From the IMG/VR virus record IMGVR_UViG_3300043410_001533, positions 1 to 54,800 of that record: DNA of 54,800 nt. One strand, 5' to 3'. This document shows positions 7,006 through 48,244 of the stretch, piece by piece. The notes below the pieces were generated by a model. That model was not told where the DNA came from. It did not search any database and saw only the letters and a list, made by a program, of their open reading frames with translations. The position numbers were made by a program, and so were the translations under genes. The DNA comes from a virus. Numbering within the stretch: the stretch's first letter is position 1; every line of letters begins with the position of its first letter.

Positions 7006-7014
7006 CACTGTTGA

Positions 7015-7929: not shown

Positions 7930-7942
7930 TTTTTAGTCCTCC

Positions 7943-8515: not shown

Positions 8516-8547
8516 ATTAGTCACTCCAAATCATGGTTCAGAATCCG

Positions 8548-9087: not shown

Positions 9088-9091
9088 AATC

Positions 9092-10863: not shown

Positions 10864-10864
10864 G

Positions 10865-13363: not shown

Positions 13364-13397
13364 AGTCTCAGCCTTTAATATGCGATTTTAACACGGC

Positions 13398-16026: not shown

Positions 16027-16639
16027 GGAGACCCTCAATGTTGATGTTGGAGTCGAGCTGGCCCGACACATTCATATTCACATCTTTCGAACGGAATTTC
16101 GCATCGTACCCCATGAGCGTGAACTGGAGCAGTGAATCACTGAACTTCTTCACAGTGTCGCCCGTCTTGACGCCCTGATGCACGATCGGCTCGTCGTGTC
16201 CAATCACTGAGCGGCGGTACGCTTCGGCACGCATCGTATCGACCATCTCCTCTTGGATGCTGTCCATGATGCTGTCGAACATTTTGTGGTCACCGCGCCA
16301 GCCGATCAGCGTCTGCCGATGGATGCCCGCCGTGGTGTAAGCGTGACGCAATGAGAATTTCGCATGGGGTGGACCATCACGGAATTCGGCGATGATGATC
16401 AGCATTTTGAATGCTTTGGTCTCTTCGAGTAACGCCAAATCACCAACCGCTTTGAGCGTGGGATCGTTGCACTCTTTCGTGTGTGCAAGATGACTGGCTG
16501 AATTGGGCGGGTGCCGCACGCGGTCACGCACGATTGCGTCCAGCAGTGTTTGCACAGAGATTCCCGCACGACGCTCGTACTCGGCGATCGTCTGGGGTCC
16601 GATGTCTTTCAGCAGTTTGAGATCGTCATTGAAGGCCAT
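15980..16639 (-). CDS. Putative terminase small subunit
   Basis: A 219-residue protein immediately upstream of terL. A DNA-binding-like helix-turn-helix could lie at about residues 100-122 (KFSLRHAYTTAGIHRQTLIG followed by WRGD), followed by a helical oligomerisation region and a short C-terminal tail (DSNINIEGLRDRLAQRLNS) that could contact TerL. I chose ATG 16639; the frame runs 63 codons further upstream into the repeat block, but without a ribosome binding site and with composition unlike its neighbours. Position and architecture support TerS; sequence alone does not prove it. Confidence 0.7.
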   Translation of the reverse strand: MAFNDDLKLLKDIGPQTIAEYERRAGISVQTLLDAIVRDRVRHPPNSASHLAHTKECNDPTLKAVGDLALLEETKAFKMLIIIAEFRDGPPHAKFSLRHAYTTAGIHRQTLIGWRGDHKMFDSIMDSIQEEMVDTMRAEAYRRSVIGHDEPIVHQGVKTGDTVKKFSDSLLQFTLMGYDAKFRSKDVNMNVSGQLDSNINIEGLRDRLAQRLNSRAKAE

Positions 16640-23166: not shown

Positions 23167-23443
23167 TACCCCCCTTCGGTATTCGTGTCGCCACGATGGT
23201 CGCATACCCCGCGATGTCCACCCATGAGTCGAGGTGGTTGGGGTCGCCGTTCAAAATGCGGGAGGCCTTGCACGCGATCATGTCGAGCGATTCACGCTGG
23301 TGGTACTCCAGCCGTTCCCAGCCGGGGCACTCGCGAAAGAGATCCTTCAGGGTCTGTGCGATCTCGGCTTGAATCGTGTAGTCGCCGTACGACTCGCCAC
23401 GCTCCGCGACCACCCCGTCTATGTTAAGAGATGACTGCGGCAT
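23138..23443 (-). CDS. DUF6378-like phage protein
   Basis: A 101-residue protein with the pattern of the DUF6378 phage family: RGESYGDYTIQAEIAQTLKD, ESLDMIACKASRILNGDPNH, DSWVDIAGYATIVATR. Function of the family unknown. The ATG at 23443 lies inside the end of the preceding gene (20-base overlap), with AAAGGAGGACTCGCTC upstream. Its C-terminus (DKATPPVL) is promoter sequence. Confidence 0.75.
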   Translation of the reverse strand: MPQSSLNIDGVVAERGESYGDYTIQAEIAQTLKDLFRECPGWERLEYHQRESLDMIACKASRILNGDPNHLDSWVDIAGYATIVATRIPKGGIDKATPPVL

Positions 23444-24692
23444 GAGCGAGTCCTCCTTTTTTATATCGGCTCTTGTACGAGCCGGGAGGAGCTTCTTTCA
23501 CCAGACGCTCCACGATGTCTTCGGGGTCGTAGCCTTTAAGCATTCCGCGAATCAGAGCTTCGGTCGTGGCCTGTCGTCCAAGCGTCGTGGGGCCGAATGC
23601 CCCTGCTAGGTCCTGTGGGTTCGCCATAACTTGAGGCTCGGCGAGATTCTTCAGCAAGACGTCCTCGTAGGGGCGCACTTGGCTGATTCGCAGTGGCGAC
23701 GCCGTACCGGTGCCGGGGCCGTAGGCTCCCGCCATTTGCGCTTCGCGCGTCATCAGTGTGCCGATCGTTTCGTCAGGTGTCATGTTCAGGAAATTCGGGG
23801 TGCGCAAATCCTGCGCCGCGTCCATCAGTTCGTCGGTCTTCTTATTCGTTACTAGATTCGGACCACCGAATAACTTCTTCAGGTAGTAGTCTTCCTTGTG
23901 GCTGGCTTGAACAGGCATCGAGAAAAGCTGGCCGGACATCCCGGGCGAGTACGCCACCTCTTCGACTGGGGCGATATATCCGAGGTTCCCGTGTCCGAGC
24001 GAATGGGACGCCACATTGCCGAGTCGCCGCACTTGGTTTACATCCGTCAAATGCGACGCGAAGTTACCATGCCCCTGTGCACGCATCATGTCGTACGCCA
24101 GTGCGTACAGCTCTTTGCCTTTCGCGGGCAGACTCTTCCACCACGCGGAATCGGGGTCCTTCAGACCGTACGTTCCGGGCTTGACGTCCATGGCGTAGAG
24201 TTCAGTCATCGTCGGGTGAGGCATATCCATACCGAACTGTGCCCGAGCCGCATTCCACTGGGGATCGCGCATCGCCGCTTCAGCCATGTAACGCTCCAGC
24301 TCGAAACCGAGCGGGGTCTTGTCTTTGTCAAGCCTTGAGGGTGACCACGTGATGTTCGGATGAATACCCCGTGCATGTGCCTCGTCTATGTCCTTAGGTG
24401 CTTTACTCTCGGGGTCGAGTCGGATTTTGCCGGTAGAGGGCATATAGCCACGCTGTACCGCGCCTTCGTTCGTCGAGGACATCGTCGCACGAATCGGCTC
24501 GCCACTGGCGGTCTTGCCAAACATCCCGGCCTTGTTGTACTGCTCGAGCACTTCAGCGGGGAGCATGCCCGCCTGTGCTTGACGCATACCCAGCGGGACG
24601 CGCTGTGCGCCGGGGAGAGTGGCAATGGCGCGGTGGCCCCTGCCTACTCCCTCCATTAGGTCAGCGAACGATAGGTTCTTTACTGGTGGCAT
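23424..24692 (-). CDS. Unknown protein, paralogue of 24997-26244, YKKGG tail
   Basis: A 422-residue protein. It aligns along its length with the 415-residue protein at 24997-26244: SFADLMEGVGRGH/TFKDLLTGLADVH at the start, FGKTASGEPIRATMS/FGTLPSGEPVRASVMS, LGHGNLGYIAPVEE/FGHGDFGTISPLNE, REAQMAGAYGP/REAQLAGAYGP, and GPTTLGRQATTEALIRGML/GPNTLGRALTTEETVARML. It ends YKKGGLAHAAVIS. No known motif; a virion-packaged protein or toxin-like enzyme are possible. It lies in the early region. Confidence 0.75.
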   Translation of the reverse strand: MPPVKNLSFADLMEGVGRGHRAIATLPGAQRVPLGMRQAQAGMLPAEVLEQYNKAGMFGKTASGEPIRATMSSTNEGAVQRGYMPSTGKIRLDPESKAPKDIDEAHARGIHPNITWSPSRLDKDKTPLGFELERYMAEAAMRDPQWNAARAQFGMDMPHPTMTELYAMDVKPGTYGLKDPDSAWWKSLPAKGKELYALAYDMMRAQGHGNFASHLTDVNQVRRLGNVASHSLGHGNLGYIAPVEEVAYSPGMSGQLFSMPVQASHKEDYYLKKLFGGPNLVTNKKTDELMDAAQDLRTPNFLNMTPDETIGTLMTREAQMAGAYGPGTGTASPLRISQVRPYEDVLLKNLAEPQVMANPQDLAGAFGPTTLGRQATTEALIRGMLKGYDPEDIVERLVKEAPPGSYKSRYKKGGLAHAAVIS

Positions 24693-24978: not shown

Positions 24979-25007
24979 ATTATAACACACGTGGGACTAG
25001 GCGTCAA
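24979..25007 (-). promoter_or_regulatory. Sigma70-type early promoter (25.0 kb)
   Basis: TTGACG, 17-bp spacer ending CACGTGTGT, TATAAT. It overlaps the 3-prime end of the gene at 24997-26244. Confidence 0.75.
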
Positions 25008-26244
25008 GTGCGGTGGCCAGCCCGCCTTTTGCGTATCGACCCTTAATCGCTTCCAGCGGCACACCCTTGAACAGTTCATACGAGATCTCTTCGGGTGTCT
25101 GCCCACGGAGCATTCGCGCCACGGTCTCCTCAGTGGTGAGTGCTCGTCCAAGAGTGTTGGGTCCAAATGCGCGTAAAATGCTGTCTCTACCCTGCTCACT
25201 GGCTTTTTTCACCGTCGGCACAGACAAAGCCCGGAGGTCTTTCATGTCGAAAGGCCCAAGTCCTTGAGTCGGTGGTCCATAAGCCCCCGCAAGTTGTGCC
25301 TCGCGCAAAAGCATATAGCCCGCCATCTCGTCATCGGTGAGACCAGCAAATGCCCGAGGTCCCATTCCTTGGAGCTTCGTGCCGAACTTCGAAGGCAACA
25401 AATCGCGAAGGTAACTGTCTTCAAGATTTATGTCATCGACCGGCGACTTAAAAGATTGAGAGGACCACGGGGTCAATCCCCGGACTTTTTCTTCGTTCAA
25501 CGGCGAAATCGTGCCGAAGTCACCATGGCCGAAATAATGTGACAACACATTCCGAAGTCGGCGCGGGTGATTCACTTCAGTCAGTGTTCCTGCGGTTACG
25601 CCAAATTCACCACGAGGTGCACGCGACATATCGTACCCAAGCTGGTAGAGGTTAGTACCGGGGGATTTAAATCCTTTCCACCCGGGGCCACTGCCGCCTG
25701 CATCCATCGCGTTAATTTGGAACATTTGAGCGGATTTGGAACCAATACCGGTCTCACGCCCAGCCCGCACGTCGGCCTTATACTTTTCGAAGTTACGAGC
25801 ATCAATCGGACCGAGCATATTTTCAATCCGATTGAATAATGGGCCGGTCCGGTTGTAATCGTACGTGTCGTAGTCGTAGTCTTTCTTAAAGCGCATGGTC
25901 GGATTGCCATCGCCTTCCCGGTATGCTTTGGGCGTCTTGCTTTCCCCATGTAGAACTATATCGAATTTATCATTCGTATTTTCTTGGATCGGCACATTCT
26001 TACTTACCGGGCCGTCAACGTGGGGACTCATGACTGATGCCCGCACAGGTTCGCCGCTCGGCAATGTGCCAAATATCCCCTTGTCGCTCGCGATCTTGGC
26101 CATTTCGCCGTGCGTCTTGCCGCGCAAAAGATCTCGAATTTCGAACGCTTGAGCACCGGGTTTGGCCGCCGCCGCTTTGTGGACGTCGGCCAGCCCCGTA
26201 AGCAGGTCTTTAAACGTCAGTCCCTTCGGTATGGGCGGAGCCAT
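24997..26244 (-). CDS. Unknown protein, paralogue of 23424-24692, YAKGG tail
   Basis: A 415-residue protein, related end-to-end to the 422-residue protein at 23424-24692 (see there for aligned blocks). It has its own central insertion rich in Asp/Tyr (FKKDYDYDTYDYNRTG) and ends RYAKGGLATALDA. The ATG at 26244 overlaps the deacetylase gene by 35 bases, so they are co-translated. No catalytic motif is recognised; the conserved His/Gly-rich block [SY]xGHG[ND]xGxI could be functional. Confidence 0.75.
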   Translation of the reverse strand: MAPPIPKGLTFKDLLTGLADVHKAAAAKPGAQAFEIRDLLRGKTHGEMAKIASDKGIFGTLPSGEPVRASVMSPHVDGPVSKNVPIQENTNDKFDIVLHGESKTPKAYREGDGNPTMRFKKDYDYDTYDYNRTGPLFNRIENMLGPIDARNFEKYKADVRAGRETGIGSKSAQMFQINAMDAGGSGPGWKGFKSPGTNLYQLGYDMSRAPRGEFGVTAGTLTEVNHPRRLRNVLSHYFGHGDFGTISPLNEEKVRGLTPWSSQSFKSPVDDINLEDSYLRDLLPSKFGTKLQGMGPRAFAGLTDDEMAGYMLLREAQLAGAYGPPTQGLGPFDMKDLRALSVPTVKKASEQGRDSILRAFGPNTLGRALTTEETVARMLRGQTPEEISYELFKGVPLEAIKGRYAKGGLATALDA

Positions 26245-27079
26245 GGTATACCTCGTCGCTGATCGCCAGCGTTTGCAGGTGGATGTCGATCGTGTCTTGC
26301 ATATTCTTCGCGTATCCACCGGCTAGATTCCACACCAATGGGACCCCGGCTTCGCGTGCGGCAGTGAAGATACCACGATCGCGGGCCGCGAGACCCTCCT
26401 TGGACAGGTACCCGACGCCGTAGGGGTCTTGGTCCCAAGCGTCAGCACCGGCCTGATACAGTATTATACCAGCTTTAGAGTGTCGAATCAATCCCTTGGC
26501 GAACGACTGCCACATCGCGGCATTCCAGTCGGACTGGATCGGGCGTCCTATGTCGGGGCGGGTGACGTGCGTAACGCGACCCCGAATCATCAGGTGGTCC
26601 AGTATATCCTCGGTCCCGTCGCCGTGGTGACCATCTCCGTCTATAATCAGCACATTCTTCGCGCCGTTGCGCAGTGCCTTCATCGCGGTGATCATCAGCC
26701 CGTTGAACGTGCAGTACCCGTACCCATCCTCGAAGTGGGCGTGGTGGAAGCCCTGAGTCGCGGAGCACGCCACGGCACCACGCACGCCACCTTGCTGGAG
26801 CACGTGCTTAGCCGCCGCCCAGTGGCCAGCGTTCGAGTAGAGGAGCGAGTTCGTGATCTCCGGATCGATCGTGTTGAACCCGTTGGGGGCGACATTCTTC
26901 AGGATGCCACGGACATACTCGCGGTGGTGCGCCTCCTCGAAGTCTACCGCCGTGTATGGCTCGAAGTTCGAGCGCACGTCGCCCTCCAACTGGTGGATGA
27001 ACTCGGGAATCTTCCTAACGGAGATAAAGTCGTAGGAGACCTCTTGGGCCGGGTGGTAGAATACGGGGGTGTTAGTCAT
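26210..27079 (-). CDS. Histone-deacetylase-like (arginase-fold) hydrolase
   Basis: A 289-residue protein of the HDAC / acetoin utilisation / acetylpolyamine amidohydrolase superfamily, zinc enzymes that remove acetyl groups from lysines or polyamines. Catalytic His pair in GFHHAHFEDGYGYCTFN (H112-H113), zinc ligands D149 and H151 in LIIDGDGHHGDGTED, third ligand D213 in YQAGADAWDQDPYG, and the transition-state Tyr Y256 in NLAGGYAKN are all present, so it is probably active. The family's usual length is 300-370. First gene after a perfect promoter (27115-27143). Substrate unknown: host DNA-binding proteins, acyl-polyamines or acetylated enzymes are options. Confidence 0.88.
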   Translation of the reverse strand: MTNTPVFYHPAQEVSYDFISVRKIPEFIHQLEGDVRSNFEPYTAVDFEEAHHREYVRGILKNVAPNGFNTIDPEITNSLLYSNAGHWAAAKHVLQQGGVRGAVACSATQGFHHAHFEDGYGYCTFNGLMITAMKALRNGAKNVLIIDGDGHHGDGTEDILDHLMIRGRVTHVTRPDIGRPIQSDWNAAMWQSFAKGLIRHSKAGIILYQAGADAWDQDPYGVGYLSKEGLAARDRGIFTAAREAGVPLVWNLAGGYAKNMQDTIDIHLQTLAISDEVYHGSAHTEGTDV

Positions 27080-27090: not shown

Positions 27091-27333
27091 CTATAGTTTA
27101 TTGGTAGGGGACGAATTATACCACACCTGCGATAGATTGTCAACCCCCTTCTTTTTCTTGTCCTTCGGCGGCTCGGGCAGTTCAGCACGCTCGATGTCGC
27201 GCTCGTCGGCCTTTTCGCGAGTCGTGAAGCGAAATTCGCAGTGATTGCAAATCCGGCGACGGCGGGTGATGCCGTTAGCGTTTTGGTAGGTCGTCGTGAC
27301 CCGGGTGTCTTCCCCACACTTGATGCAGTTCAT
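27091..27333 (-). CDS. NrdR-like zinc-ribbon protein
   Basis: An 80-residue protein. CIKCGEDTRVTTTY, then GITRRRRICNHCEFRFTTRE (residues about 3-40) match the zinc ribbon of NrdR, the bacterial repressor of ribonucleotide reductase genes, including the RRRR-x-C and RFTT-x-E signature, but it lacks the ATP-cone. The start overlaps the DatZ stop (ATGA). As the last gene of the Z operon it might interfere with host dNTP control or be a general DNA-binding ribbon (inference). The C-terminal 22 residues overlap a promoter. Confidence 0.7.
   Translation of the reverse strand: MNCIKCGEDTRVTTTYQNANGITRRRRICNHCEFRFTTREKADERDIERAELPEPPKDKKKKGVDNLSQVWYNSSPTNKL
27115..27143 (-). promoter_or_regulatory. 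Sigma70-type early promoter (27.1 kb)
   Basis: TTGACA, 17-bp spacer ending CAGGTGTGG, TATAAT, followed by the ATAGAGGACATTACC leader of the deacetylase gene. It lies inside the coding region for the C-terminal tail of the zinc-ribbon gene. Confidence 0.85.
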
Positions 27334-27893
27334 AACCATCCCCCTGTAATTCCTATATCGTTGCACACGCGACGCACCGACTCGCGGGGCGAGAGCTTGG
27401 GATGCAAACGCTCGGCCTCAGTCACCATGTCGGACAGAATCGCCCGGAGGCCGTCCAACACTTGCTTAGCGTGCGCTCCGACTCCGTTGTCCTGCAGGAA
27501 AAAGATCGCCTCGATCTGGTCCGCAAGCTTCACGATCGTCTCTACTTCTGTGCCGCGCACTTGTCGGTAAGCCGACATGGTCTCGGCGTCCACTCGGTCC
27601 TCAGCCTTTTCCACGATACCCTTACCCCCTACGGCTTCTAGGTCTCGCTTGAAAGGCGTTGGCATATCTCCGGTGCGCACCTCGATGATGTCGTGCGCGA
27701 GTGCCCACTGCAGGAGCTTCAATTTGCCCGATTCCTGCAACAGGCCATTCCAGCGCATTGCGGCCGCAAGGGATCCCGCGATCACCGCTACTGCGAAAGA
27801 GTGCTCGGCCAGCGTCTGCTCGCGTGACGTCTGCACGATGTGCCAGCGACGAACGTGGCAAGCGCGAAGCTGTTCGTATACTGTTAAACTCAT
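27330..27893 (-). CDS. datZ: DatZ-type dATP triphosphohydrolase (HD domain)
   Basis: A 187-residue HD-domain phosphohydrolase of YfbR/DatZ type. Metal ligands visible: H31 (TLAEHSFAVA), H67-D68 (ALAHDIIEVRTGD) and D125 (VKLADQIEA). In known Z phages DatZ removes dATP so that adenine is excluded from DNA (S-2L DatZ is about 175 residues). Its location, in one operon with PurZ, MazZ and the polymerase, argues for DatZ rather than a housekeeping 5-prime nucleotidase. The start overlaps the upstream stop (ATGA). Confidence 0.88.
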   Translation of the reverse strand: MSLTVYEQLRACHVRRWHIVQTSREQTLAEHSFAVAVIAGSLAAAMRWNGLLQESGKLKLLQWALAHDIIEVRTGDMPTPFKRDLEAVGGKGIVEKAEDRVDAETMSAYRQVRGTEVETIVKLADQIEAIFFLQDNGVGAHAKQVLDGLRAILSDMVTEAERLHPKLSPRESVRRVCNDIGITGGWL

Positions 27894-27982
27894 AAGGGTG
27901 CGTCCTCGTAATTCTCTATGTTAAATGGTAGCCGGTAGAGCGGCTGGTGTTCAGGCAGTTTAGACGGGAATGGCCACGTCAC
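27890..27982 (-). CDS. Possible 30-residue peptide gene in Z operon
   Basis: A GTG-started frame that overlaps the previous stop by GTGA and the DatZ start by ATGA: both junctions have the 4-base overlap seen throughout this operon. Encodes a Pro/Tyr-rich peptide (EHQPLYRLPFNIENYEDAP). No ribosome binding site is strong, so this could be chance. Confidence 0.4.
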   Translation of the reverse strand: MTWPFPSKLPEHQPLYRLPFNIENYEDAPL

Positions 27983-28194
27983 GACTTGACGGCTTGCAGT
28001 CTGCGAATCTGGTCCGCTATCTGGTCGCCAGTCAGCTCGTCGAAGAGCTGGAATTCGTACTGCCGGGCCACGTGTTCGAGTGCTCCGTTCCATATCTTTT
28101 TCACTGCCTCCCTATTTTCATTATCTTCGGACCCGAGCACGTTACCAAACGTCTGCTCGTACCACTGATCGAATGCTTCATTTCTCTTCGACAT
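27979..28194 (-). CDS. Small helical protein in Z operon
   Basis: A 71-residue protein, predicted all-helical (RNEAFDQWYEQTFGNVLG, AVKKIWNGALEHVARQYEFQ), overlapping the MazZ gene by 17 bases. Similar short proteins with N-terminal helix and FEAWY-like motif occur in many phages. No function known; it is retained inside the Z cluster. Confidence 0.6.
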   Translation of the reverse strand: MSKRNEAFDQWYEQTFGNVLGSEDNENREAVKKIWNGALEHVARQYEFQLFDELTGDQIADQIRRLQAVKS

Positions 28195-28681
28195 GGCGCA
28201 TTATCCTTGTGTTAACGTCCACTTCCCACTGACGTTGCTCATTGATATCCATCTTGTCTTCTACCGCCTTATGTACGTCTATGCCGTTTTTGTGCGCGAC
28301 GTCCAGCAGTAGAATCATGATATCACCCATTTCGAGAGCGGCTTTTGGGTTACGAGCGTACTCGCCCACCTCCTCGTAGAGCTTGAGTAGGATGTCCGCA
28401 GTGGTACGCGCCGGAAAACGCGAGTCTGCCCACTTGGTAATTCTATCCTGAAGCTGTCGGATGTCGGCCCCGCCGCGCTTTTTGTACGCGTTGACGGCGC
28501 GGACCGCAAGGTCGGCATTTTTATCGCAGTTCCCCATAACCCCACGCAAGTGGTGACGGACTTCGAAAGACGCGACGGTTGCGCCTTGCGCATCGACAAT
28601 TTCGGCCGCCCGCTCGGGGTGGACTGCCCATGGAAGTTCATTCGCTTCATCCGTGTGTACTGTTGATTCTACCTGTAGCAT
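28178..28681 (-). CDS. mazZ: MazZ-type nucleotide pyrophosphohydrolase with N-terminal extension
   Basis: A 167-residue protein. Residues about 95-130 carry the MazG metal-binding motif EExxE...ExxD (E103, E104, E107, E117, D120 in LYEEVGEYARNPKAALEMGD). In Z phages MazZ turns dGTP/GTP into the monophosphate that PurZ uses. Residues 1-68 are an extra module (ELPWAVHPERAAEIVDAQGA ... AVNAYK) of a type seen in other phage proteins. I start at ATG 28681 because GGAGAG precedes it and the longer frame lies inside purZ. Confidence 0.85.
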   Translation of the reverse strand: MLQVESTVHTDEANELPWAVHPERAAEIVDAQGATVASFEVRHHLRGVMGNCDKNADLAVRAVNAYKKRGGADIRQLQDRITKWADSRFPARTTADILLKLYEEVGEYARNPKAALEMGDIMILLLDVAHKNGIDVHKAVEDKMDINEQRQWEVDVNTRIMRHVEEK

Positions 28682-29774
28682 ATACTCTCCAAAGTTCAAG
28701 AATTCGCGCCAGCCGAGCATCTGAGCTGTACTGAGGCATTGAGTAAACATCTTTATATTCCGGTCCAAGTCCGATCCAACGCACGAATGTGTTCGGCGTA
28801 CGCTCGATTGACTCCACGATATCCCGTACCTCGTCCTCGGACCTGCAGTAATTGACGAAGTTCAGGAAGATCTCACGGGCACCATTATACTCGATCGCTT
28901 CGCCGATCTGCTTGCGGCTGAACGTAAAAATACGGCGCGGGAGCTTGGTCACAGTGGTCAGCTCGGTCTTTTGCCCGATCTCCTCGAACGTGATCTCCAG
29001 CTGGTCGTCGTAGCACGGACCGGAGTACCCGACTTGCGTCCCGTGTGTGTCGAACCGGTTGGCCACGCGGATCGGGTAAGTGCGGCAAGTGCCGACGACG
29101 GTGATGTCGGGGAGGTCCATGACTTGTGGTAGCAGATCGTGCGGAATGCCGCAATCGGCGAGGATTTGCCACAGGCTCACATCACGCGAAGTGGTGTAGG
29201 GGTAGAAGCCGTGGTACATCGACAGCCCGTACCCTTGTGCACCTTCTACCAGCACGTGCTCGGCTTCACGCAGTGCGGTGCGATACGCAGACACTGTGAC
29301 TACGTATTTCGCCAGCTCCGCACAATTGGCGGCTATATTCAGATCGTCCGGATCGCGCCGAATTCGCTGAATCATCGCGGCACCCACGCCCTTTTTAGTC
29401 GAACCGATCTTGGTCATTGGCCCGGCTTCCTCTTCGATGTGACGATCGGTCACTACGGCGGCGTGCGGGTGGATCGCGATTCGCACATTCTTGAGCAAGT
29501 CCGCGCACGCGGCGATCTCTTCGAGCAGTTGCTGGGGGTTTATGAGTGAGCCGGGGCCAAGTAGCACCTGCTTGAGCATGGGCGACACGATGCTATTCGC
29601 AAGGTGCGTATGGATGAACTTGCGTCCAGTCTTGCTGATGTACGTGTGCCCCGCATTGGGTGCCCACGCGGTGATTACCGTATCCGGTGCTTCGTCCTCC
29701 GCGATCTTGCCTACGATCAGCCCCTTGCCGGTGCTTCCATATTGCAAATCGACTACGACTTTAATCTTGTCCAT
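28647..29774 (-). CDS. purZ: PurZ, adenylosuccinate-synthetase-like enzyme for 2-aminoadenine
   Basis: A 375-residue homologue of PurA. Conserved: VVVDLQYGSTGKGLIVG (P-loop-like start), APNAGHTYIS, GPGSLINP, VEGAQGYGLSMYHGFYPYTT (residues about 190-210), GTCRTYPIRV. In PurA the first motif is GDEGKG with catalytic Asp13; here it is GSTGKG, with Ser14 in that place. This substitution marks PurZ, which condenses dGMP with aspartate to give dSMP, later cleaved by host PurB to dZMP. Start at ATG 29774 (AGAGGTA upstream). Overlaps MazZ by 35 bases. Confidence 0.95.
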   Translation of the reverse strand: MDKIKVVVDLQYGSTGKGLIVGKIAEDEAPDTVITAWAPNAGHTYISKTGRKFIHTHLANSIVSPMLKQVLLGPGSLINPQQLLEEIAACADLLKNVRIAIHPHAAVVTDRHIEEEAGPMTKIGSTKKGVGAAMIQRIRRDPDDLNIAANCAELAKYVVTVSAYRTALREAEHVLVEGAQGYGLSMYHGFYPYTTSRDVSLWQILADCGIPHDLLPQVMDLPDITVVGTCRTYPIRVANRFDTHGTQVGYSGPCYDDQLEITFEEIGQKTELTTVTKLPRRIFTFSRKQIGEAIEYNGAREIFLNFVNYCRSEDEVRDIVESIERTPNTFVRWIGLGPEYKDVYSMPQYSSDARLARILELWRVYATGRINSTHG

Positions 29775-29779: not shown

Positions 29780-31615
29780 CTATCCTTTCGCTTCGTACCA
29801 GTCTTCGCCTATACCCCAGTCGCACGTGATCGGAACACGCAGATGAATGGGGCATTCTACACCATCAAAGGTCGTGTAGATTCGTGCTACCTCTTTCGCT
29901 TTGTCAAGTGAGTCATTATCGAGCGATATGCCCACCTCGTCGTGCACCGTCAGCAGTAGTCGCCCACAGCCTTCGGCGGTTAAATACTTGTGAAGCTCGA
30001 TGAGCTTTTGCTTCATGCAGTCCGCGCTGGTGGCTTGGTAAATCAGCCCCGACGCCTTGTGCACGAATTGGCCGCCCGGAAAGCGAAGCCTCCGGCCCAT
30101 CACCGAATGCACCGATCCGCGCTCTTTGGCAATGTTACTCGCCTTCTGTGCGGTGTTGCGCATCCCGGGGTTGGCGGTGTGGTACTTCTCGAACAGTGCC
30201 ATCGCCTCAGGTCCAGCCTTAAGGAACACATTGCCGTTGGGTCCCACCTCTTCGGTATATGGCAGTCCACACTCTTGCGCTAGTCGCCCCGACCCCATAT
30301 TGAACGCCAGCCCGAGGTTAATCGCCTTCGAAGACGGGCCACCCGCGTACTGAGCGTTCCGGGGTATGCCGGTGAGATCAGACACCAACTGGTGAAAGTC
30401 CAAATCGGGGTTCGCACGATAGGCCTCAAGAATCGCGGGAACCTGACCGTAATGGTTAGCCACTCGGAATTCAAATTGTGACCAATCCAGCCCCATCCAT
30501 TTAGCACCCACATCAGCCTTGAAAATCGGCCGGATAAGCGATTTGATGGCAACGTCTCTAGATGGTATCTGCTGGAGAGCGGGATTGGTAACTGATAGAC
30601 GTCCAGTGCCAGTGCCCGCCTCAGAGTCGTTTTTAGTCTGATTATAATTGCAGTGAATGATGCCATCGTGTTCATGCCCTAAGATGTGACCCGATAGGAA
30701 TGTATCCCGGGTCTTGAGCATTTTGCGCAAGTCGAGAATCATCTTTGCGGCGGGGTGCTTCATGCGACGTAGGCAGTCGGCGTTGATCGAGGCCTTGCCA
30801 CCGTCGGTCTTGTCCGCTTTTGTGCCATCAATCAGGTACCACTCATTATCGTCCCCGAGTGTCGGCTTGAATAGGTCCGCGATCGATCCGGAAGGGTTCG
30901 GGTTGACCTCGAAACCGGCCAAGCTATTCAGATCCCTCTGCATATTGTCAACGCGCACGGTGAGGTCACGAACGGCCTTCTCAGCCAGCCCTACATCCAC
31001 CCGCACACCCTGCTCTTCCATGTCCATGATGACTGGCATCAAGTCGCGCTCGAGCTTGTGCACTTGGGCGAGATTCTGCGTCCGCATCTGCTCCTCTTGC
31101 CACTGGTACAGTGCCAGCGTCACCACAGCGTCTTGAATCGCGTATTTCGACACGAGACTGATGGGGGCGCGAGAAATGTTCGGCATCTGTGCGTTGCGAG
31201 TCGGGCGACCACCGAAGAGGCGCGACATCTCCTCGTAGATCTCCTCGTCCTTCTTCATCCCGCAGTATTTACGAGCGAGGAAGTCGAGGGCGTACGTGGG
31301 TTCGTGCTCCGAAATCAGAGCGGCACGGGTCATCGTGCAGTCGATTCGGTCCAGTGGTAGTGCGACTCCGGCTTCGCGCAGGAAGTGCAAGTCGAACTTG
31401 AGATTATGGCCAACCCACAGCCCGACGCGCTTCTCTTTGATAAGATCGTTGAGCCATGCGACGATGTAGGGGTCGGACCGGACGTCCCAGTAGCCCGAGT
31501 ACCCCGGGAATGCGATGGAAATGCCGAACAGCTTGTCGGCCCACCACTTCAATCCCGTGGTCTCGGTGTCTATGACCACGACAGGTTCGTAGTCAATGCG
31601 TGGGAGTTCGGTCAT
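29780..31615 (-). CDS. dpoZ: DpoZ-type family A DNA polymerase with 3'-5' exonuclease
   Basis: A 611-residue replicative polymerase. Exonuclease: D16/E18 (VVIDTETTG), D75 (HNLKFDLHFL), Y158 and D162 (YAIQD), so proofreading is intact. Polymerase: motif A D377 (GLDWSQFEFRV), O-helix K430 (SSKAINLGLAFNMG), motif C H558-D559-E560 (TVHDEV). In the O-helix, E. coli Arg754, Phe762 and Tyr766 align with G426, L434 and F438. No 5'-nuclease domain. In known Z phages a PolA relative beside purZ inserts Z in place of A. It overlaps the SSB-like gene by a TGATG junction. Confidence 0.92.
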   Translation of the reverse strand: MTELPRIDYEPVVVIDTETTGLKWWADKLFGISIAFPGYSGYWDVRSDPYIVAWLNDLIKEKRVGLWVGHNLKFDLHFLREAGVALPLDRIDCTMTRAALISEHEPTYALDFLARKYCGMKKDEEIYEEMSRLFGGRPTRNAQMPNISRAPISLVSKYAIQDAVVTLALYQWQEEQMRTQNLAQVHKLERDLMPVIMDMEEQGVRVDVGLAEKAVRDLTVRVDNMQRDLNSLAGFEVNPNPSGSIADLFKPTLGDDNEWYLIDGTKADKTDGGKASINADCLRRMKHPAAKMILDLRKMLKTRDTFLSGHILGHEHDGIIHCNYNQTKNDSEAGTGTGRLSVTNPALQQIPSRDVAIKSLIRPIFKADVGAKWMGLDWSQFEFRVANHYGQVPAILEAYRANPDLDFHQLVSDLTGIPRNAQYAGGPSSKAINLGLAFNMGSGRLAQECGLPYTEEVGPNGNVFLKAGPEAMALFEKYHTANPGMRNTAQKASNIAKERGSVHSVMGRRLRFPGGQFVHKASGLIYQATSADCMKQKLIELHKYLTAEGCGRLLLTVHDEVGISLDNDSLDKAKEVARIYTTFDGVECPIHLRVPITCDWGIGEDWYEAKG

Positions 31616-31947: not shown

Positions 31948-33363
31948 CTACAATTTGTACCCGTTGTACCCCTCCACTATGTCCAGCACACGCTTCGATC
32001 GAGTCATTCCCACGTAGAACACTCGAACCTCGTCGTCCGGTGACTTCTCGGCGGTCTGCTGTACCCGCGTGGTCATGTCGGTCAGAAGAACGACTCGGTC
32101 CGCTTCGTGACCTTTTGCCGCGTGGATCGTAGAAAGGCGGATAGTCGGCTCAGTATCGAGGTCAGCGTCTGCGTAGAAGTCCACGACTCGGCCGGGGATT
32201 TGGAGGGCCACGTAGAATGGGGTGCGACCAAGAGTGGCGAGGTCGCCCGCTTCAAGTAGCCGCCTTGTCTCAGCACTGGAAATCGTGAATATTGCGTTTC
32301 GTTCTCCATCAGTAATCCGCTCACCTCGACCCAGCTTGCGAAATGCTCGTAGTCCGGCGGCGTATCGATTTTGATACAGTCCGGGGCGGCCCGACTCGCG
32401 CGTGTACGGGATGCGGCGTTCAATGAGCGATTGTTCAACTTCGCGGAGGACTGAATGCGTCCGTCCCAATAGTAGTATATCTTCCCCGTGGGTGATCTCC
32501 ACCGAGTTGATCGATCCGTGTACTCGGACCAGTCCCATATCTGCTTTGGGACTAAACTCCTTATCCACGCGGAATGCGACTCGACGGATAAGCTCTTGCG
32601 ATCGTGCGTGGACTGAAGCAGGAAGTCGATGCGAGTACGAGAGCACATGGCTATTACCCTTGTGCTTGTCCGTAAATCTTGCCATACCGTGTACATCCGC
32701 ACCGGCCCACGTATAAATCGCCTGATCGTCGTCCCCTGCGATATGCACTTCGTGAGAACGTCTGACGAGCTTCTCGATAACAGCCCACTGAAGAGGTGAT
32801 AGGTCTTGAGCTTCGTCGACAAATACAACCTCTGCGTCTGCTCGCACTGCGCCCCGGGCGGCACGTTCAAGCATATCGGTGAAATCGTAATATCCGTACG
32901 TAGATTTCCAATCAGCATATGCCCGAACGAACGCATTGAACTCGGCCCGAGTGCCCGGCCGGTCCGAGATGTCGTATACTTCTGCCGGATTGGAAAAGGT
33001 GTTCCGGGCATAATTGAGTAAGTCAAGGTAGAAGTCTCCATCGGCACGCTCCTCATCATCTTCCGGGGATTTACCAATGATCGGTATCCCCATTACGGTT
33101 GAAAATTCGCGAAGCTTCATCGGGTCCACGACTTGCGTCTGCCGCAAGCCCATGTGCCGGAAGGCCATCGCATGAATGGTGGACACATTGTCCGATCGCT
33201 TGAGGCCCAGCCGGGAGAGTGCCTCGGATGCCGCCGCACGGGTGAAAGATACGAAGGCCACACGTTCGGCTTGAACGCCTGAATCCCTAGTCTCTTTCAC
33301 ACGCCGGAGTAGCTCCGTGGTCTTGCCAGTCCCGGGAGGTCCGTAGATGGCGTTAACTTGCAT
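31948..33363 (-). CDS. UvrD/Dda-like SF1 DNA helicase
   Basis: A 471-residue helicase. Motifs in order: Walker A GPPGTGKTTELL (residues 9-18), Ia VAFVSFTRAAASEAL, II VVFVDEAQDLSP (DEAQ 183-186), III IAGDDDQAIYTWAGA, V STIHAAKGHEADRVVLLTD, VI RVFYVGMTRSKRVLDI. These are all the SF1A set. Length is short for UvrD and similar to T4 Dda, which helps start replication and recombination. The start overlaps the upstream stop (TAATG). Confidence 0.9.
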   Translation of the reverse strand: MQVNAIYGPPGTGKTTELLRRVKETRDSGVQAERVAFVSFTRAAASEALSRLGLKRSDNVSTIHAMAFRHMGLRQTQVVDPMKLREFSTVMGIPIIGKSPEDDEERADGDFYLDLLNYARNTFSNPAEVYDISDRPGTRAEFNAFVRAYADWKSTYGYYDFTDMLERAARGAVRADAEVVFVDEAQDLSPLQWAVIEKLVRRSHEVHIAGDDDQAIYTWAGADVHGMARFTDKHKGNSHVLSYSHRLPASVHARSQELIRRVAFRVDKEFSPKADMGLVRVHGSINSVEITHGEDILLLGRTHSVLREVEQSLIERRIPYTRESGRPGLYQNRYAAGLRAFRKLGRGERITDGERNAIFTISSAETRRLLEAGDLATLGRTPFYVALQIPGRVVDFYADADLDTEPTIRLSTIHAAKGHEADRVVLLTDMTTRVQQTAEKSPDDEVRVFYVGMTRSKRVLDIVEGYNGYKL

Positions 33364-33644
33364 TAGCCGCGATGCTTCACTGCACGCACTGCCCACATCT
33401 GGGCCGTGACCGCGTGCGCAATCGCCGTGTTGAACATCTCCTGCACTTCGCCATCGTGATAGGCGTCGCGCAGTGTGCGCAGATAGACGACTGATGTGTC
33501 GAACGCTTGATTCACGTTGCGGATTCGACGCTCCTCGTCGCTTTCGGCTTGAGGAATCGGAGACACAGGCATCGTAGTCTCCATCTCTTTAAATTCGGAG
33601 AGCACATCTTCCGCTGGTGTCTCCACTTGCTTTTTGGTAGCCAT
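33363..33644 (-). CDS. Small hypothetical protein in replication region
   Basis: A 93-residue protein with a disordered acidic N-terminal half (VETPAEDVLSEFKEMETT) and a helical C-terminal half (SVVYLRTLRDAYHDGEV, MFNTAIAHAVTAQMWAVRAV). It overlaps the helicase start and follows the UUCG hairpin at 33659-33674. No family recognised. Confidence 0.6.
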   Translation of the reverse strand: MATKKQVETPAEDVLSEFKEMETTMPVSPIPQAESDEERRIRNVNQAFDTSVVYLRTLRDAYHDGEVQEMFNTAIAHAVTAQMWAVRAVKHRG

Positions 33645-42697: not shown

Positions 42698-43672
42698 TTA
42701 TGGATAATCAACGGTATCGTTACCGTAGTTCGACGTATCAGTATTCGATGTGTCGAAATTAAAATCCGGACTGTTAAAGATATTACTTAATGATGTGCCA
42801 AGTGAGCTGATTGCGTTGCCGAATCCGGCGGCCGCACTTGTACCACCAGTACCGGAGGCAAAGAGTGACCCGAGGCCCGCGATCTGCGCCAATGGTGACG
42901 TAGAATAAGCACCGGGGATCGGAGCGTTAGCTTCCTCGGACACAGTGCTTGGTACTTTAACATTCGAAAACACATTGGCCGCGCCGGTGGCGGCGGCAAG
43001 TGGGGCCATGATTTCGGTCTGCGCGAGCTTCTGCTCTTCACCACCGAGATTGTATAAACGCTCGAGTTCTTTAAGCTTAGCATCCAACTCGGTCGTAGCG
43101 AGACCTTTCTCAGTCTCTGCCGCTTGGCGATACAAGCCCGCTTGATCCATTGCGGCCTTCAATGCGCTATCGTAACCGGACGAAAGTGCTTTAGTCTGTG
43201 CGCCGAGCAGGTTCGCTTGTACGTCAGCACCCATTTGCCCCATAGCATCGTACATGCGCTTACCGCCTGTGCCGCCAGTACCGGCGAATGCGCCCTTAAG
43301 AGAGGGAATCAGTGAACGCTGAAGGCTTTGCTGTTGTAGACGCTCCATCTCGTTCACTACACTGGAGGTGTAGGGATTCATGAAGCCCTGAATCATGTCA
43401 GGCGTGACGCCTGCGGCGGCAAGGCGCGCGGCATCTTGGGCTTCACCGAGCATGCCTTCGTAGCCACTCAAACCGCCAGCCTTAGCAGTATCCAGCACAC
43501 CAGTCTGAAGCTCCGACATGGGAGCGACTAGGTCCGCGCCGGTTTTGCCGAGCAGTTCAGTGCCGGGGGCGGCAAGGCTTTCGAGGTACTGGTTGTACCA
43601 GTCGGGGCCTTTAGTCTCTACCTCTTTGGTAGTCGTGATATTCGGTAGAGGATCACCTTGGAGGATGCTCAT
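42698..43672 (-). CDS. Virion protein, Gly/Ala-rich C-terminus
   Basis: A 324-residue protein, N-terminal helical (TKGPDWYNQYLESLAAPG, YEGMLGEAQDAARLAAAG), central RSLIPSLKGAFAGTGGTGGK, and a Gly/Ser/Asn-rich C-terminal tail. The pattern recurs in ejection-type or tail-adjacent proteins of podoviruses. It overlaps the 1524-residue gene by 4 bases (ATGA). Confidence 0.65.
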   Translation of the reverse strand: MSILQGDPLPNITTTKEVETKGPDWYNQYLESLAAPGTELLGKTGADLVAPMSELQTGVLDTAKAGGLSGYEGMLGEAQDAARLAAAGVTPDMIQGFMNPYTSSVVNEMERLQQQSLQRSLIPSLKGAFAGTGGTGGKRMYDAMGQMGADVQANLLGAQTKALSSGYDSALKAAMDQAGLYRQAAETEKGLATTELDAKLKELERLYNLGGEEQKLAQTEIMAPLAAATGAANVFSNVKVPSTVSEEANAPIPGAYSTSPLAQIAGLGSLFASGTGGTSAAAGFGNAISSLGTSLSNIFNSPDFNFDTSNTDTSNYGNDTVDYP

Positions 43673-46600
43673 AATACACCTTTCAGATATGCCAAGGGCG
43701 ACTTAGCCTTTGGGGGAATTGATTTAAGGGAGCCGCCACGCTTGTGCTTGCGGATTGCTTCCCGCATAGCGTCCAGCTTCTTGGCACCCTCTTTGTTTGA
43801 GCCGTCGCCCAGTGCCGCCACGATCTCCGCGTCGAACACGTATTCACCGTCTGCGAGCTTGGCCGGGATAAGGTCGTCCTGACCGCCGCCCGCGCCCTGT
43901 ACGTAGTGAGATCCTTTGTGGGGTACATCGCCGCCTGACGCCGCCATGAGTGGTGAAGCCATTATTTTACCACCGTCGGCATGGTTTTGTACAGTCCCCC
44001 CATTCATGAACGGTTCGAGGACCTTGGAGTAGGAAGGTTCCGTGCCGTAGGCGTAGTAATCGGCCTCGGGGGTCTTGGGCTGGTCTTCCAGTCCTGATGC
44101 GCGGCGCAGGGCCGACAGTGCTTGTGCTTCTTGGAACATAGGTGTACTCTCGGGCAGTAATGCGCCCAGTCCGGCAAGGGGCGCGATGTTACGGAATCGA
44201 CCACCGAGCCACGTCTCGGCGATGTCGTGATCTTTGGCGGCGTAGGCGGGTTCGTTGAGGGCAACTCCGGCCATCATCCAAGGGAGGACCTTCTTGGTCA
44301 CTGGCGTCTTGGTAGTCGGCGTGGTCTTTGTAACCTTACTAGGGTCCACTATATCGCCTGTATTAATGTCGATGACGGTAGAACCAATCTGAACCAGATC
44401 TTTGTTGATCACGGTGACGGGGCCATCCACACTTGTTACTTCACCAGTGTCGGTGTTAGTGTTGATAGTTACTGTTGTACCAGTATTGGTATCGGTCACC
44501 GTGTTCGTAGTGGTATTAGTATTGGTATCGACGGTCGTATTAGTGTCAATGCCAGTGTTGTTATTAGTATTAGTAGTCGTGGTAACGCCAGTATTTGTGT
44601 CGGTGGTAACAGTCGTATTGGTGTTAGTATTGGTGTTAGTGGTGGTCATAGTCGTTGTGTTCGTGTTAGTATCGACTGTCGTATTCGTAGATATGCCAGT
44701 GTTGGTGTTAGTGCTCGTATTGGTGTTAGTGTCCGTACCGGTGTTAGTGTTAGTGTTAGTGTTAGTGTTAGTGTTAGTACCGGTGTTTGTATTCGTACCA
44801 GTATTAGTATTAGTACCGGTGTTCGTATTCGTACCAGTATTAGTGTCCGTACCGGTGTTAGTGTTAGTGTTAGTATTAGTACCGGTGTTCGTATTCGTAC
44901 CAGTATTAGTATTAGTATTAGTACCGGTGTTCGTATTCGTACCAGTATTAGTGTCCGTACCGGTGTTAGTGTTAGTGTTAGTATTAGTGTCCGTACCGGT
45001 GTTAGTGTTAGTGTTAGTATTAGTACCTGTCGTAGTCGCTGTACCAGTGTTAGTGTTAGTACCTGTCGTAGTCGCTGTACCAGTGGTAGCATTGGATACA
45101 GCGGTAGTTGCGGCATTGGAAGCCGTGGTTACATCAGCACCGGCGGCTATAGCGGCATTGGCGGCAGTTGCGGCTGTAACGTTCACATTGGCACCGGTAT
45201 TATTCGCGGCGGCCACTACTGAGGAGATTGTGCTGTCTACGTTAGCGCCATTACTGATCGCATTGCTCACCGAAGTATCTACGGCTTGAGTGGTGTTGCC
45301 GGTCGATTCGAAGATCGAGGCGAAATCGGTCGCCGCTGATGTGTCAGCTCCAGTGGTCGTAGTGTCACTACCTGTAACTTCAGTGACCGAGGTGTCCACA
45401 CCCTTAGTGGCCCCAGTCGTTCCGGTTCCGGTGCCGGTGTCGCTGATCTTGGTAATGGTTTCGGGGCGGAATGTGCCGTCGGTAGATGTCAGACCTTGCT
45501 CAGCAAAAGCATTTTTCAGCTCGGTGTTCACGTTCGCACTACCATGAGAAGTGCCACTAATACCTGAAATCGTACCGGATGCTTTAGCACCCGTAAAGCC
45601 GCCGACCACCGACTTAGACAATGCAGTGTTGAGATCGTCACCAGTCGCCAGTGCAATAGCGAATTCTTCCCAGCTCTCCTCAGGGAATTCTTTACCAGCA
45701 CCAGCGACGACTTTACCGCTGAATTTCTCCAAGGCCTTTTCGTAGGATTTGATAAGTGCTGTGTCCACCAGTCCAGCAGTACCCATCGTGATCGCACCTG
45801 CAATAATACCATTGCGCTCTGCGATCTTCTCAGCTTGCTCGGGCGGAGTACCTTTTGCGATCTCGTCGTTGAATGTCTGGCGGTTGTTGGAACCCATGGA
45901 TTCCAGAGCATTGGCACTCATATCAGTGAGGAGGCCGAGCATCTTGCCGCCGTATTTGAATGCCGCGCCACCGAGCAACATTGGTAGTGCCTCTTGACCC
46001 ACTTCTTTTGCGGCGGCGACCACCACCAACGGTTGGTCTTTAATCGCTTTAAGCGCGGCGGCGAGTTTCCCGGTGTAGGCTTCCTCCGCCTGCACTTTGT
46101 CCCAGAAATTTTGGTTCGCCTCGGTTACACCGGGGATCTCAGTCTCTTTACCAAGCTTTTCGAGGCTCATACCTAACTGTACCAGCGCATTGTAGCGACC
46201 AACCAGTCCCGTTTGGCTTGCCGCAGTACCAATGTCCGCAATCTGCTCACCAAGTAGCCCAGAAGTGGTCGAGATCAACTGCTTGATCGTATCCGCTTGT
46301 GGACCTTCGAGTGTGTTAGCCCACTTGGACAGGTCCGCAAGTGCGTTATCGATATTGGACACTTCGGTCTTAGTCTCGGTATCAGTGCCGCGATTTCCGA
46401 CTCCGGCGATGTCTACTTTGAACGGACTAGTGTACTTACTATTCTCGTACGATTCGGCCGCGCTGTAAGTCGAGTTTCCAGTGAGCACGTCAGCCAGAGT
46501 CGCGGCTTTGAGCACACCAGTGCCATTCGCAGTGAATTTATCGTAATTCGTCAGGAATTTAGTCTGCTCGGCATCCGTGAGCTGGTCCACACTGGTCTTG

Positions 46601-48243
46601 CCAAGGGACTTAACATACTCGTTCACGAGCTTCGCATCGACTGCTTGCTTCTCGTCAGCGGGCAAATCGCCGGTCGCTTTATTTACGATGTAGGTCTTGC
46701 CGCCAACAGTGAAGGAGTCATTACCCTTCGCAATCGCGAGAGCGGCGGCCTCATCCAGTGAATTCACATCTGCATTGTCGAGATTCAGAGTGTTCTTTGC
46801 ACGGTTGTCGGTGACTTGTGTATTAGTTGTGGTTCCGACCACGGTGCTCGCGGCGTCGAGCGCGTCAGCGTCGGTAGCACCGGCATTTTTAGCTTGCACG
46901 AATGCGTCAGCACCGCTAGTCACGCTTGTAGCCACAGACTTGGCAATGTTAGCATTGGCGAGATTATCAGCCGCTTTGATCGTGTTGTTCAGCCCAGCCG
47001 CCGCATTAATGATGGCGACTTCATTGCCCGAATTCAGGGCGTTGACAAGGTTCAAAGCCGCGCCAGCGGTCTTAGTGTCAGCACTATTGGTCAGCGTTCC
47101 GAGCGAGTTTAACGCCCCGGCGTAATTACCAGCCGCCACATTAGTCGCGACATTATAAGCATTGCCAGCGTCAGCGAGCGAGATTGTGTCGGTGAGCATC
47201 GTGCTACCGGCCATTTTGCCTACGGTATCATTTTGCAACAGCGACATTGCAAGTGCACCCATGTCGCCTTGATCGATTGCTTTGGTGACTCGCAAAGCAG
47301 TGGCGGCATCATTGAACCCAGCTACACCCGCGAGGCTGGCGAGACCGCCGAGCACGTCGCCTTGATCGATCGCAATCGCGGCATTGGCGGCCATGGCGAA
47401 CGGAGCGACACCGGGGATAAATTGTGCAATAGCCAATAGTGGTGCATAATCGCCCACATCACTACTGGAAGCTCCAGTGGTGTAAAAGATAGGACGGCCT
47501 TGCTCATCAAACGCCGCACGAAATGCGGTATTGCCAGAACCTGCGTAAGTCCCTGAGAATGCATTACCCGTGCCGCGCTCGCCATAGTCATTAATCAACA
47601 CTTCACCAGTGTTTTTATTAATGATCTGAGTGACGGTTTGATCGGGTACAGTTTCAGTCCCACTCTCGGTCTCGTATGTATAACCGGGTATTACTGAAGT
47701 CTTTTGGCCGACTTGCGAGATGTCAGTGACGCCTGATGCCACCAGATTCTTAGCCATCGCCTCCGCATTGGCGGCGGCGGATCCGAAGCCTTCACCCGTC
47801 CACTTGGAAGTCGTCCCCTGTGCGAGAATTTGGTCTTTGACTTTATTCACGTCATCGGCGGCCAGATTGTAGGTCTGCCCAGCGAATTGAGCCGCAATAG
47901 TGTTGGCGGCAGGTGTGGTGGATTGTGTGGTGGCTCCAGTGGTCGCCTTTGCAAGTGCACCGGTGGTAGGCTCCACATAATCCGAGGCATCTTCAAGGAC
48001 TGTGCTTTTACCACCAGTAACAGAGGCTAGCGCACCTGTAGCAGGGGCATCGACTATGGGCTGAGTGTAAAGACTATAAGCTTGGGAAATCGTTGGTGCG
48101 CCAATACCTAGCGTGTTTAAATAGTCGATAGCCTGCTGTTGAACAGCGGCGGTATCTCCACCCGCAAGTCCAACGAATTCCCCATACGCGGCGGCGATAT
48201 CTTCGGGTGTGCTGGATGATGACAGGTATTCGTAAAGTGCCAT
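43669..48243 (-). CDS. Giant virion protein with Thr/Asn repeat and GG tags
   Basis: A 1524-residue protein. The N-terminal 1000 residues are Ala/Asn/Asp/Thr-rich helical sequence. About residues 1045-1255 are almost purely Thr/Asn/Gly/Asp repeats (TNTNTGTDTNTNT). The end has FMNGGTVQNHADGGKIMA, then VPHKGSHYVQGAGGGQDD, LADGEYVFDAEIVAALGDGS and GAKKLDAMREAIRKHKRGGS, the last group resembling the C-terminus of several aquatic phage proteins. A tail or ejection protein is likely. The repeat resembles a flexible tether. Confidence 0.75.
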   Translation of the reverse strand: MALYEYLSSSSTPEDIAAAYGEFVGLAGGDTAAVQQQAIDYLNTLGIGAPTISQAYSLYTQPIVDAPATGALASVTGGKSTVLEDASDYVEPTTGALAKATTGATTQSTTPAANTIAAQFAGQTYNLAADDVNKVKDQILAQGTTSKWTGEGFGSAAANAEAMAKNLVASGVTDISQVGQKTSVIPGYTYETESGTETVPDQTVTQIINKNTGEVLINDYGERGTGNAFSGTYAGSGNTAFRAAFDEQGRPIFYTTGASSSDVGDYAPLLAIAQFIPGVAPFAMAANAAIAIDQGDVLGGLASLAGVAGFNDAATALRVTKAIDQGDMGALAMSLLQNDTVGKMAGSTMLTDTISLADAGNAYNVATNVAAGNYAGALNSLGTLTNSADTKTAGAALNLVNALNSGNEVAIINAAAGLNNTIKAADNLANANIAKSVATSVTSGADAFVQAKNAGATDADALDAASTVVGTTTNTQVTDNRAKNTLNLDNADVNSLDEAAALAIAKGNDSFTVGGKTYIVNKATGDLPADEKQAVDAKLVNEYVKSLGKTSVDQLTDAEQTKFLTNYDKFTANGTGVLKAATLADVLTGNSTYSAAESYENSKYTSPFKVDIAGVGNRGTDTETKTEVSNIDNALADLSKWANTLEGPQADTIKQLISTTSGLLGEQIADIGTAASQTGLVGRYNALVQLGMSLEKLGKETEIPGVTEANQNFWDKVQAEEAYTGKLAAALKAIKDQPLVVVAAAKEVGQEALPMLLGGAAFKYGGKMLGLLTDMSANALESMGSNNRQTFNDEIAKGTPPEQAEKIAERNGIIAGAITMGTAGLVDTALIKSYEKALEKFSGKVVAGAGKEFPEESWEEFAIALATGDDLNTALSKSVVGGFTGAKASGTISGISGTSHGSANVNTELKNAFAEQGLTSTDGTFRPETITKISDTGTGTGTTGATKGVDTSVTEVTGSDTTTTGADTSAATDFASIFESTGNTTQAVDTSVSNAISNGANVDSTISSVVAAANNTGANVNVTAATAANAAIAAGADVTTASNAATTAVSNATTGTATTTGTNTNTGTATTTGTNTNTNTNTGTDTNTNTNTNTGTDTNTGTNTNTGTNTNTNTGTNTNTGTNTNTNTNTGTDTNTGTNTNTGTNTNTGTNTNTGTNTNTNTNTNTNTGTDTNTNTSTNTNTGISTNTTVDTNTNTTTMTTTNTNTNTNTTVTTDTNTGVTTTTNTNNNTGIDTNTTVDTNTNTTTNTVTDTNTGTTVTINTNTDTGEVTSVDGPVTVINKDLVQIGSTVIDINTGDIVDPSKVTKTTPTTKTPVTKKVLPWMMAGVALNEPAYAAKDHDIAETWLGGRFRNIAPLAGLGALLPESTPMFQEAQALSALRRASGLEDQPKTPEADYYAYGTEPSYSKVLEPFMNGGTVQNHADGGKIMASPLMAASGGDVPHKGSHYVQGAGGGQDDLIPAKLADGEYVFDAEIVAALGDGSNKEGAKKLDAMREAIRKHKRGGSLKSIPPKAKSPLAYLKGVL
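44480..45115 (-). repeat. Tandem (GTTAGT-type) repeat coding Thr-Asn
   Basis: On the plus strand, near-perfect runs of GTTAGT and GTGTTA with GTACCG and GTATTC interruptions; on the coding strand, ACTAACAC-type codons giving (TN)n with G and D insertions. Prone to slippage, so length may vary between strains. Confidence 0.9.
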
Positions 48244-48244
48244 A

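Follow-up and report, generated by a model that had tools for sequence, protein, structure and literature searches.

A PurZ family gene within a predicted Z-DNA cassette in a clade of uncultured phages

The gene described here belongs clearly to the known PurZ family, and is almost certainly the purZ of a phage in whose DNA 2-aminoadenine (Z) takes the place of adenine. This reading is based on sequence family, individual residues, predicted fold, operon structure and selection. Manufacture of 2-aminoadenine via PurZ, for use in place of adenine in DNA, has been described in some bacterial viruses. What is new here is only the virus group that carries PurZ, a group of uncultured phages. The gene lies in a virus record of 54,800 bases, the whole of which was analysed and is referred to below as the window (Table 1). 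A preliminary description of this DNA had named the gene purZ, and that identity is supported throughout, by the family model and the tree, by the pocket residues, and by the operon and the predicted fold.

Table 1. Features of the purZ region (window coordinates)
Feature	Position	Strand	Basis
purZ, succino-amino-deoxyadenylate (dSMP) synthase, 375 aa	28647..29774	-	NF038379 350.7 bits, cut-off 300; PDB 7odx S-2L PurZ 1.5e-80
GSTGKG loop, residues 13-18; Ser14 (AGC 29735..29733) replaces PurA Asp	29721..29738	-	alignment, 72 rows
NAGHT, residues 40-44; same in PurA and PurZ	29643..29657	-	alignment
dpoZ, family A DNA polymerase with 3'-5' exonuclease domain	29780..31615	-	NF038380 770.8 bits, cut-off 500; PDB 7pbk 8.3e-136
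mazZ-like (d)GTP pyrophosphohydrolase	28178..28681	-	PF04447 34.5 bits, cut-off 23; PDB 7ody S-2L MazZ 2.9e-11
datZ-like dATP triphosphohydrolase, HD domain	27330..27893	-	PHROG 7076 3.2e-30; PDB 6zpa DatZ 3.9e-19
SF1 UvrD-like helicase, upstream of dpoZ	31948..33396	-	PF00580 4.7e-28
NrdR-type zinc ribbon without ATP-cone, likely ATG 27333	27091..27333	-	PF22811 34.2 bits, cut-off 27.2
Histone-deacetylase-fold hydrolase (predicted)	26210..27079	-	PF00850 96.6 bits, cut-off 27.9

Gene start and family assignment

The purZ ORF is real and runs on the minus strand from ATG 29774 to a stop codon ending at 28647. The listed ORF begins at an ATG at 29855, inside dpoZ; it is ATG 29774 instead that aligns with residue 1 of phiVC8 PurZ. 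This ATG lies a few bases 3' of the dpoZ stop and is preceded by AAAGGATAGAGGTAATG; the resulting N-terminus is MDKIKVVVDLQYGSTGKG. A chance match is excluded by the scores against Pfam PF00709 (7.5e-31), PHROG 1211 ('2-aminooxy adenylosuccinate synthetase'; 1.8e-86) and the NCBIfam PurZ model NF038379 (5.9e-105, above its curated cut-off), by a dN/dS of 0.058-0.120 (dS 0.49-0.83) against 13 near relatives, and by the use of AGC as the Ser14 codon in all 13.

An ordinary PurA-like enzyme, derived from a host, converting IMP to adenylosuccinate for purine supply and having either lost Asp13 by drift or put a Ser to work in its place, would share the PurA fold and would also match PF00709, a model that takes in both PurA and PurZ and does not separate them. 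The more specific models do separate them, and make this reading very unlikely. The window protein falls below the cut-offs of both PurA equivalog models, NF003295 (161.5 against 368 bits) and TIGR00184 (119.4 against 395.55 bits). The best matches amongst PDB sequences are S-2L PurZ, followed by phiVC8 PurZ (9e-76), with the best PurA at 7e-26.

Phylogeny and structure prediction agree with this assignment. An alignment of 72 rows was assembled from the window, 59 IMG/VR loci, 10 phage references and two PurA sequences, and 65 of the rows were used for a quick tree, which contains several long branches. The window groups with PurZ, apart from PurZ0 and PurA (SH-aLRT 96), and falls in a 46-row set that includes 45 IMG/VR loci (SH-aLRT 98). 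An AlphaFold model, for which the window and 21 of the 59 loci served as input, has a mean pLDDT of 83.7 and a pTM of 0.86; as the active-site loops at residues 120-125 and 184-197 fall below 50, the description of the pocket relies on the alignment. Foldseek places S-2L PurZ (7odx) first (E 4.9e-40, TMq 0.83) and eight phiVC8 PurZ chains second (TMq 0.80), so that ranks 1-9 are all PurZ; Pyrococcus horikoshii PurA and PurZ0 follow, both with a TMq of 0.73.

Serine in place of the PurA aspartate

PurA chemistry proceeds in two steps, with Asp13 as the base, which accepts the N1 proton. The preliminary description had placed Ser14, within GSTGKG, at this position, and the alignment confirms it. 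The window loop reads QYGSTGKG, and the column holds Ser in all 65 readable phage rows and Asp in both PurA rows (bacterial sequences, Asp14 in gene numbering and Asp13 in the mature protein); the remaining five of the 72 rows are gapped and belong to incomplete loci. The Asp in PurA, which PMC12884076 gives for 99% of the E. coli group of PurA, is a further point against a PurA-like enzyme, for which both Ser14 and the equivalog scores are out of character.

That loss of the Asp is a known hallmark of PurZ, as had been proposed, is in print (PMC12884076, PMC8515928). Each of the 147 phage sequences of PurZ and PurZ0 is reported to have Ser, and four archaeal sequences Ser or Gly (PMC12884076); the same Ser hallmark is described in PMC8515928 for its own sequence set. 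The swap is thus already known, and by itself it teaches nothing new beyond the question of which group replaces Asp13 as the base. Nor does Ser alone prove the use of dGMP, because it is common to PurZ0 and some archaeal sequences.

The second proposed difference, NNAGHT in PurA against APNAGHT here, did not hold. The sequence is HNAGHT in both PurA rows and PNAGHT in the window, with an identical NAGHT core. A second active-site change at this place is rejected, as NAGHT is common to both families and the preceding residue is P, A or T amongst PurZ sequences.

Because PurZ0 has Ser at this position too (GSEAKG in the phages Wayne and Ghobes), the window gene might be thought to encode a PurZ0-type enzyme with PurZ0 nucleotide preferences. 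This is extremely improbable. The window motif is GSTGKG and not GSEAKG, the protein lies outside the PurZ0 branch of the tree, and identity to the PurZ0 of Wayne or Ghobes is only 31%. The donor site and the neighbouring genes, described below, also speak against it.

Substrate and donor pockets

The residues around dGMP and dATP in S-2L PurZ have been named (PMC8342488), and allow a position-by-position comparison. All eight base-pocket residues are identical in the alignment, S-2L Y21, G22, S23, N49, A50, T132, Q190 and V241 corresponding to window Y12, G13, S14, N40, A41, T126, Q180 and V237, and they are almost invariant over the readable IMG/VR loci. In the rest of the dGMP pocket six of seven are kept (S-2L G130, S131, R146, Y203, T205 and R240), the seventh being C204, which is T194 in the window. 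S-2L R280, near the Ser, is R280 here also. Lys277, in the loop that contacts aspartate, is Lys in the window and Gln or Asn in four of the 59 relatives. In S-2L, S23 lies 3.7 A from N2, too far for a hydrogen bond, and V241 is placed to interfere with a ribose 2'-OH (PMC8342488).

At the donor site, S-2L N305, F306, G335 and P336 correspond to window N305, F306, G337 and P338. S-2L Q308 is replaced by N308, equivalent to phiVC8 N297, where PurA has the GTP-type Asp334. The window therefore has Asn where PurA has Asp, and with N305, F306, N308 and P338 its donor site is of the adenine type, which argues against a PurA-like enzyme. The alignment also shows the PurA-type Asp at this position in PurZ0 and Asn or Gln in PurZ, a contrast that separates the window from PurZ0. 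Section 24 of PMC12884076 states that PurZ0 and PurZ prefer ATP and GTP 'respectively'. As the introduction of the same paper gives ATP for PurZ, and as PurZ0 keeps the Asp, the order in that sentence appears to be reversed.

The surrounding cassette

purZ lies between dpoZ and a mazZ-datZ pair, each with the published diagnostic residues, and the four together are predicted from their sequences to form a complete Z-DNA cassette. Against the PDB, DpoZ matches 7pbk far better than Klenow (1.2e-39). Its L434, F438 and G523 correspond to phiVC8 DpoZ L455, F459 and G548, which are departures of the phiVC8 DpoZ clade (PMC8599892), and these are kept in all 47 loci (of 59) with a long enough match. 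phiVC8 S583, not counted as characteristic of that clade in PMC8599892, is E560 in the window and so is not kept. All three insertion sites (1, 2 and 3) are occupied by residues in the window, insertion 3 being shorter than in phiVC8.

The mazZ ATG overlaps the 3' end of purZ by 35 nt. S-2L MazZ E35, E38, E50, D53, I56, D60 and R83 are kept in the window and in all 59 loci; the window protein thus has the acidic metal site and the guanine residues (I56, D60) of MazZ-1. S-2L N20, reported as unique to S-2L (PMC8342488), is Phe in the window. Window DatZ W17, I19, H31, H67, D68 and D125 correspond to S-2L W20, I22, H34, H66, D67 and D119, and S-2L P79 and K81 are also kept (contact residues from PMC8065100). 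The metal ligands and W20 are conserved in the window and in the 57 loci used; the I22 position holds Ile in 56 of these and Met in one, and the K116 position Lys in 46, Glu in 10 and Thr in one. Upstream of dpoZ, the helicase gene is found in 46 of the 69 loci examined, a number that takes in short loci and references. The mazZ-datZ spacer (window 27894-28177) ranges from ~0.2 to 2.2 kb amongst clade members (L027, L028, L053), which suggests a spot for extra genes.

A dpoZ-datZ-mazZ neighbourhood is not what a PurA-like enzyme for purine supply would lead one to expect, and datZ and mazZ types beside purZ are as in PurZ phages, a published contrast with PurZ0 (PMC12884076). There is one more alternative, that the PurZ has decayed or serves only in regulation, in a phage that has given up making Z-DNA, and Z-DNA in this clade is indeed predicted here from the genes. 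The low dN/dS over 13 relatives, the near-invariant base pocket and the retained diagnostic residues of DpoZ, DatZ and MazZ leave this reading scarcely credible. On the evidence counted against each, the PurA, PurZ0 and decayed-gene readings are all rejected.

Two further genes beside datZ

In the window's clade, datZ is followed by a gene for an NrdR-type zinc ribbon (50 of 51 loci) and then by a gene for a histone deacetylase (HDAC)-fold protein (48 of 51). Loci L029 and L031 are short of sequence at this place, and L052 has no HDAC gene within its flank. The zinc ribbon has all four cysteines, and its gene overlaps the end of datZ. Residues H112, H113, D149, H151, D213 and Y256 of the HDAC-fold protein, which we take to be the equivalents of the known HDAC catalytic residues, are kept in all 49 rows. 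Neither gene was found beside purZ in the available flanks of eight outer loci or 10 reference phages.

Relatives of the HDAC-fold protein occur in only six of 50,697 phage records. Two are of Rhodococcus phage E3 and the other four of large uncultured phages; one of these four, LR756503, also gives a weak match to PurZ (27%). A literature search turned up a single unrelated review, with no earlier mention of HDAC-type or NrdR-type genes in phages.

All sufficiently long clade records carry the Z cassette, and linkage of these two genes to Z-DNA is therefore inseparable from descent. It is conceivable, if rather improbable, that the clade's cassette has been enlarged by two functionally belonging genes, one for an NrdR-type zinc ribbon that lacks the ATP/dATP-sensing cone and one for an HDAC-fold amidohydrolase that looks intact. 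If so, the zinc ribbon could target the host's NrdR boxes once the dATP pool has been drained by DatZ, thereby tuning ribonucleotide reductase and the supply of dGMP.

Carrier phages and mosaicism

The window's clade accounts for 51 of the 59 IMG/VR loci, eight lying outside; the 51 comprise the 45 in the tree set and six partial or overlong loci placed by identity and gene order. PurZ matches were found in 211 of 50,697 phage records, all below 60% identity, and hence the clade has no close cultured member in that phage collection. No host or prophage was found, since a search for close PurZ relatives in genome_contigs (one genome per species, 84,980 species) returned 38 pattern-matching stretches, none of them a relative. 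Caulobacter phages are amongst the best matches to the virion genes, which hints only weakly at a host. PurZ is present in 16 of 23 TerL-related records chosen from the 80 listed. The seven without it are not counter-examples, because each contig, judged by its range, ends before the expected place of PurZ. Searched each by itself, the first 3 kb and the last 3 kb of the window showed no convincing terminal repeat.

By portal (59%) and TerL (48%), the annotated genome closest to the window is that of MW202545, an environmental phage whose record gives it as circular and complete. A search with 57 window ORFs gave matches to it for 18 (E 1e-3 or better), most of them virion genes, and the major capsid protein is 87% identical. 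The virion-gene matches fall at window 456-16071 and 43669-52339. The 57 ORFs searched gave no match in MW202545 for purZ, dpoZ, mazZ, datZ or the rest of the replication block; the best matches of the replication genes are to Z siphophages of Klebsiella, Pseudomonas, Salmonella and Acinetobacter. The simplest reading of these matches is a mosaic, in which a Z replication module may have been inserted into, or lost from, a shared virion backbone. Horizontal transfer of the Z cassette has been proposed (PMC12884076), and the mosaic fits this proposal.

With this clade the Z-DNA phages on record would gain an uncultured group, and there would be one more case of a Z cassette moving between phage backbones. 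The clade, with the cassette, and MW202545, without it, have major capsid proteins 87% identical, and this pair allows phages with Z to be compared with a relative whose DNA is presumably ordinary.

Other features of the window may be recorded. Two large ORFs, 23424-24692 and 24997-26319 (minus strand), look related by eye, with similar starts and C-terminal stretches; the latter has no PHROG match. A primase (37009-38571, minus strand) resembles the archaeo-eukaryotic primase domain of TOTE conflict systems (PF22548, 2.3e-13). Positions 44227-45289 form a long low-complexity Thr/Asn-rich stretch in a 1524-aa ORF (48243..43669, minus strand), and the open frames on the opposite strand there are probably mere mirrors of that ORF.

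Proposed role of the enzyme

For relatives, the literature gives the reaction, the contacts with ligands and what the neighbouring genes do. By analogy with these, the window protein would catalyse the same reaction and the virion would contain Z-DNA. The first step of PurZ is most likely phosphorylation of dGMP at O6, with ATP or dATP as the donor; aspartate would then displace the phosphate to yield dSMP. Ser14, smaller and uncharged, would replace the base-facing Asp of PurA beside the guanine 2-amino group; Val237, against C2', would disfavour ribonucleotides; and Asn308, Phe306 and Pro338 would form an adenine-type site for the phosphate donor. MazZ may supply PurZ with dGMP from dGTP and DatZ may remove dATP, while host enzymes would complete dZTP and DpoZ would insert Z opposite T.

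Comparison with known systems

PurZ of S-2L (7odx) and of phiVC8 (6fm1, 6fko, 6tnh) are 44-45% identical to the window protein and resemble it in the Ser for Asp13, the dGMP base pocket, the fold, the aspartate loop TTVTK and the ATP-type donor pocket, in which the Asn is as in phiVC8. The window protein differs in a C-terminal extension, and has the longer S-2L-type VANR...Y insertion, which phiVC8 lacks.

Acinetobacter phage SH-Ab 15497 and Pseudomonas phage PSA28 are amongst the best cultured matches to PurZ and DpoZ (46-49%) and share the order helicase, dpoZ, purZ, mazZ-type, datZ; no NrdR-type zinc ribbon or HDAC gene was found beside their cassettes. The MazZ-type gene of SH-Ab is much longer than that of the window, being published as a DUF5664-DUF550 fusion (PMC12884076), and, unlike the window, SH-Ab has an ssb gene between dpoZ and purZ.

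The PurZ0 proteins of Arthrobacter phage Wayne and Gordonia phage Ghobes share the Ser for Asp and a phage origin with the window protein, but differ in the GSEAKG motif, the donor-position Asp, dUTPase-like partners and a separate branch of the tree. PurA (E. coli; P. horikoshii 5k7x) has a like fold and most of the catalytic-site residues (Lys, NAGH, Gln, Thr, Arg), but differs in Asp13, in the Asp at the donor-base position and in its substrate, IMP.
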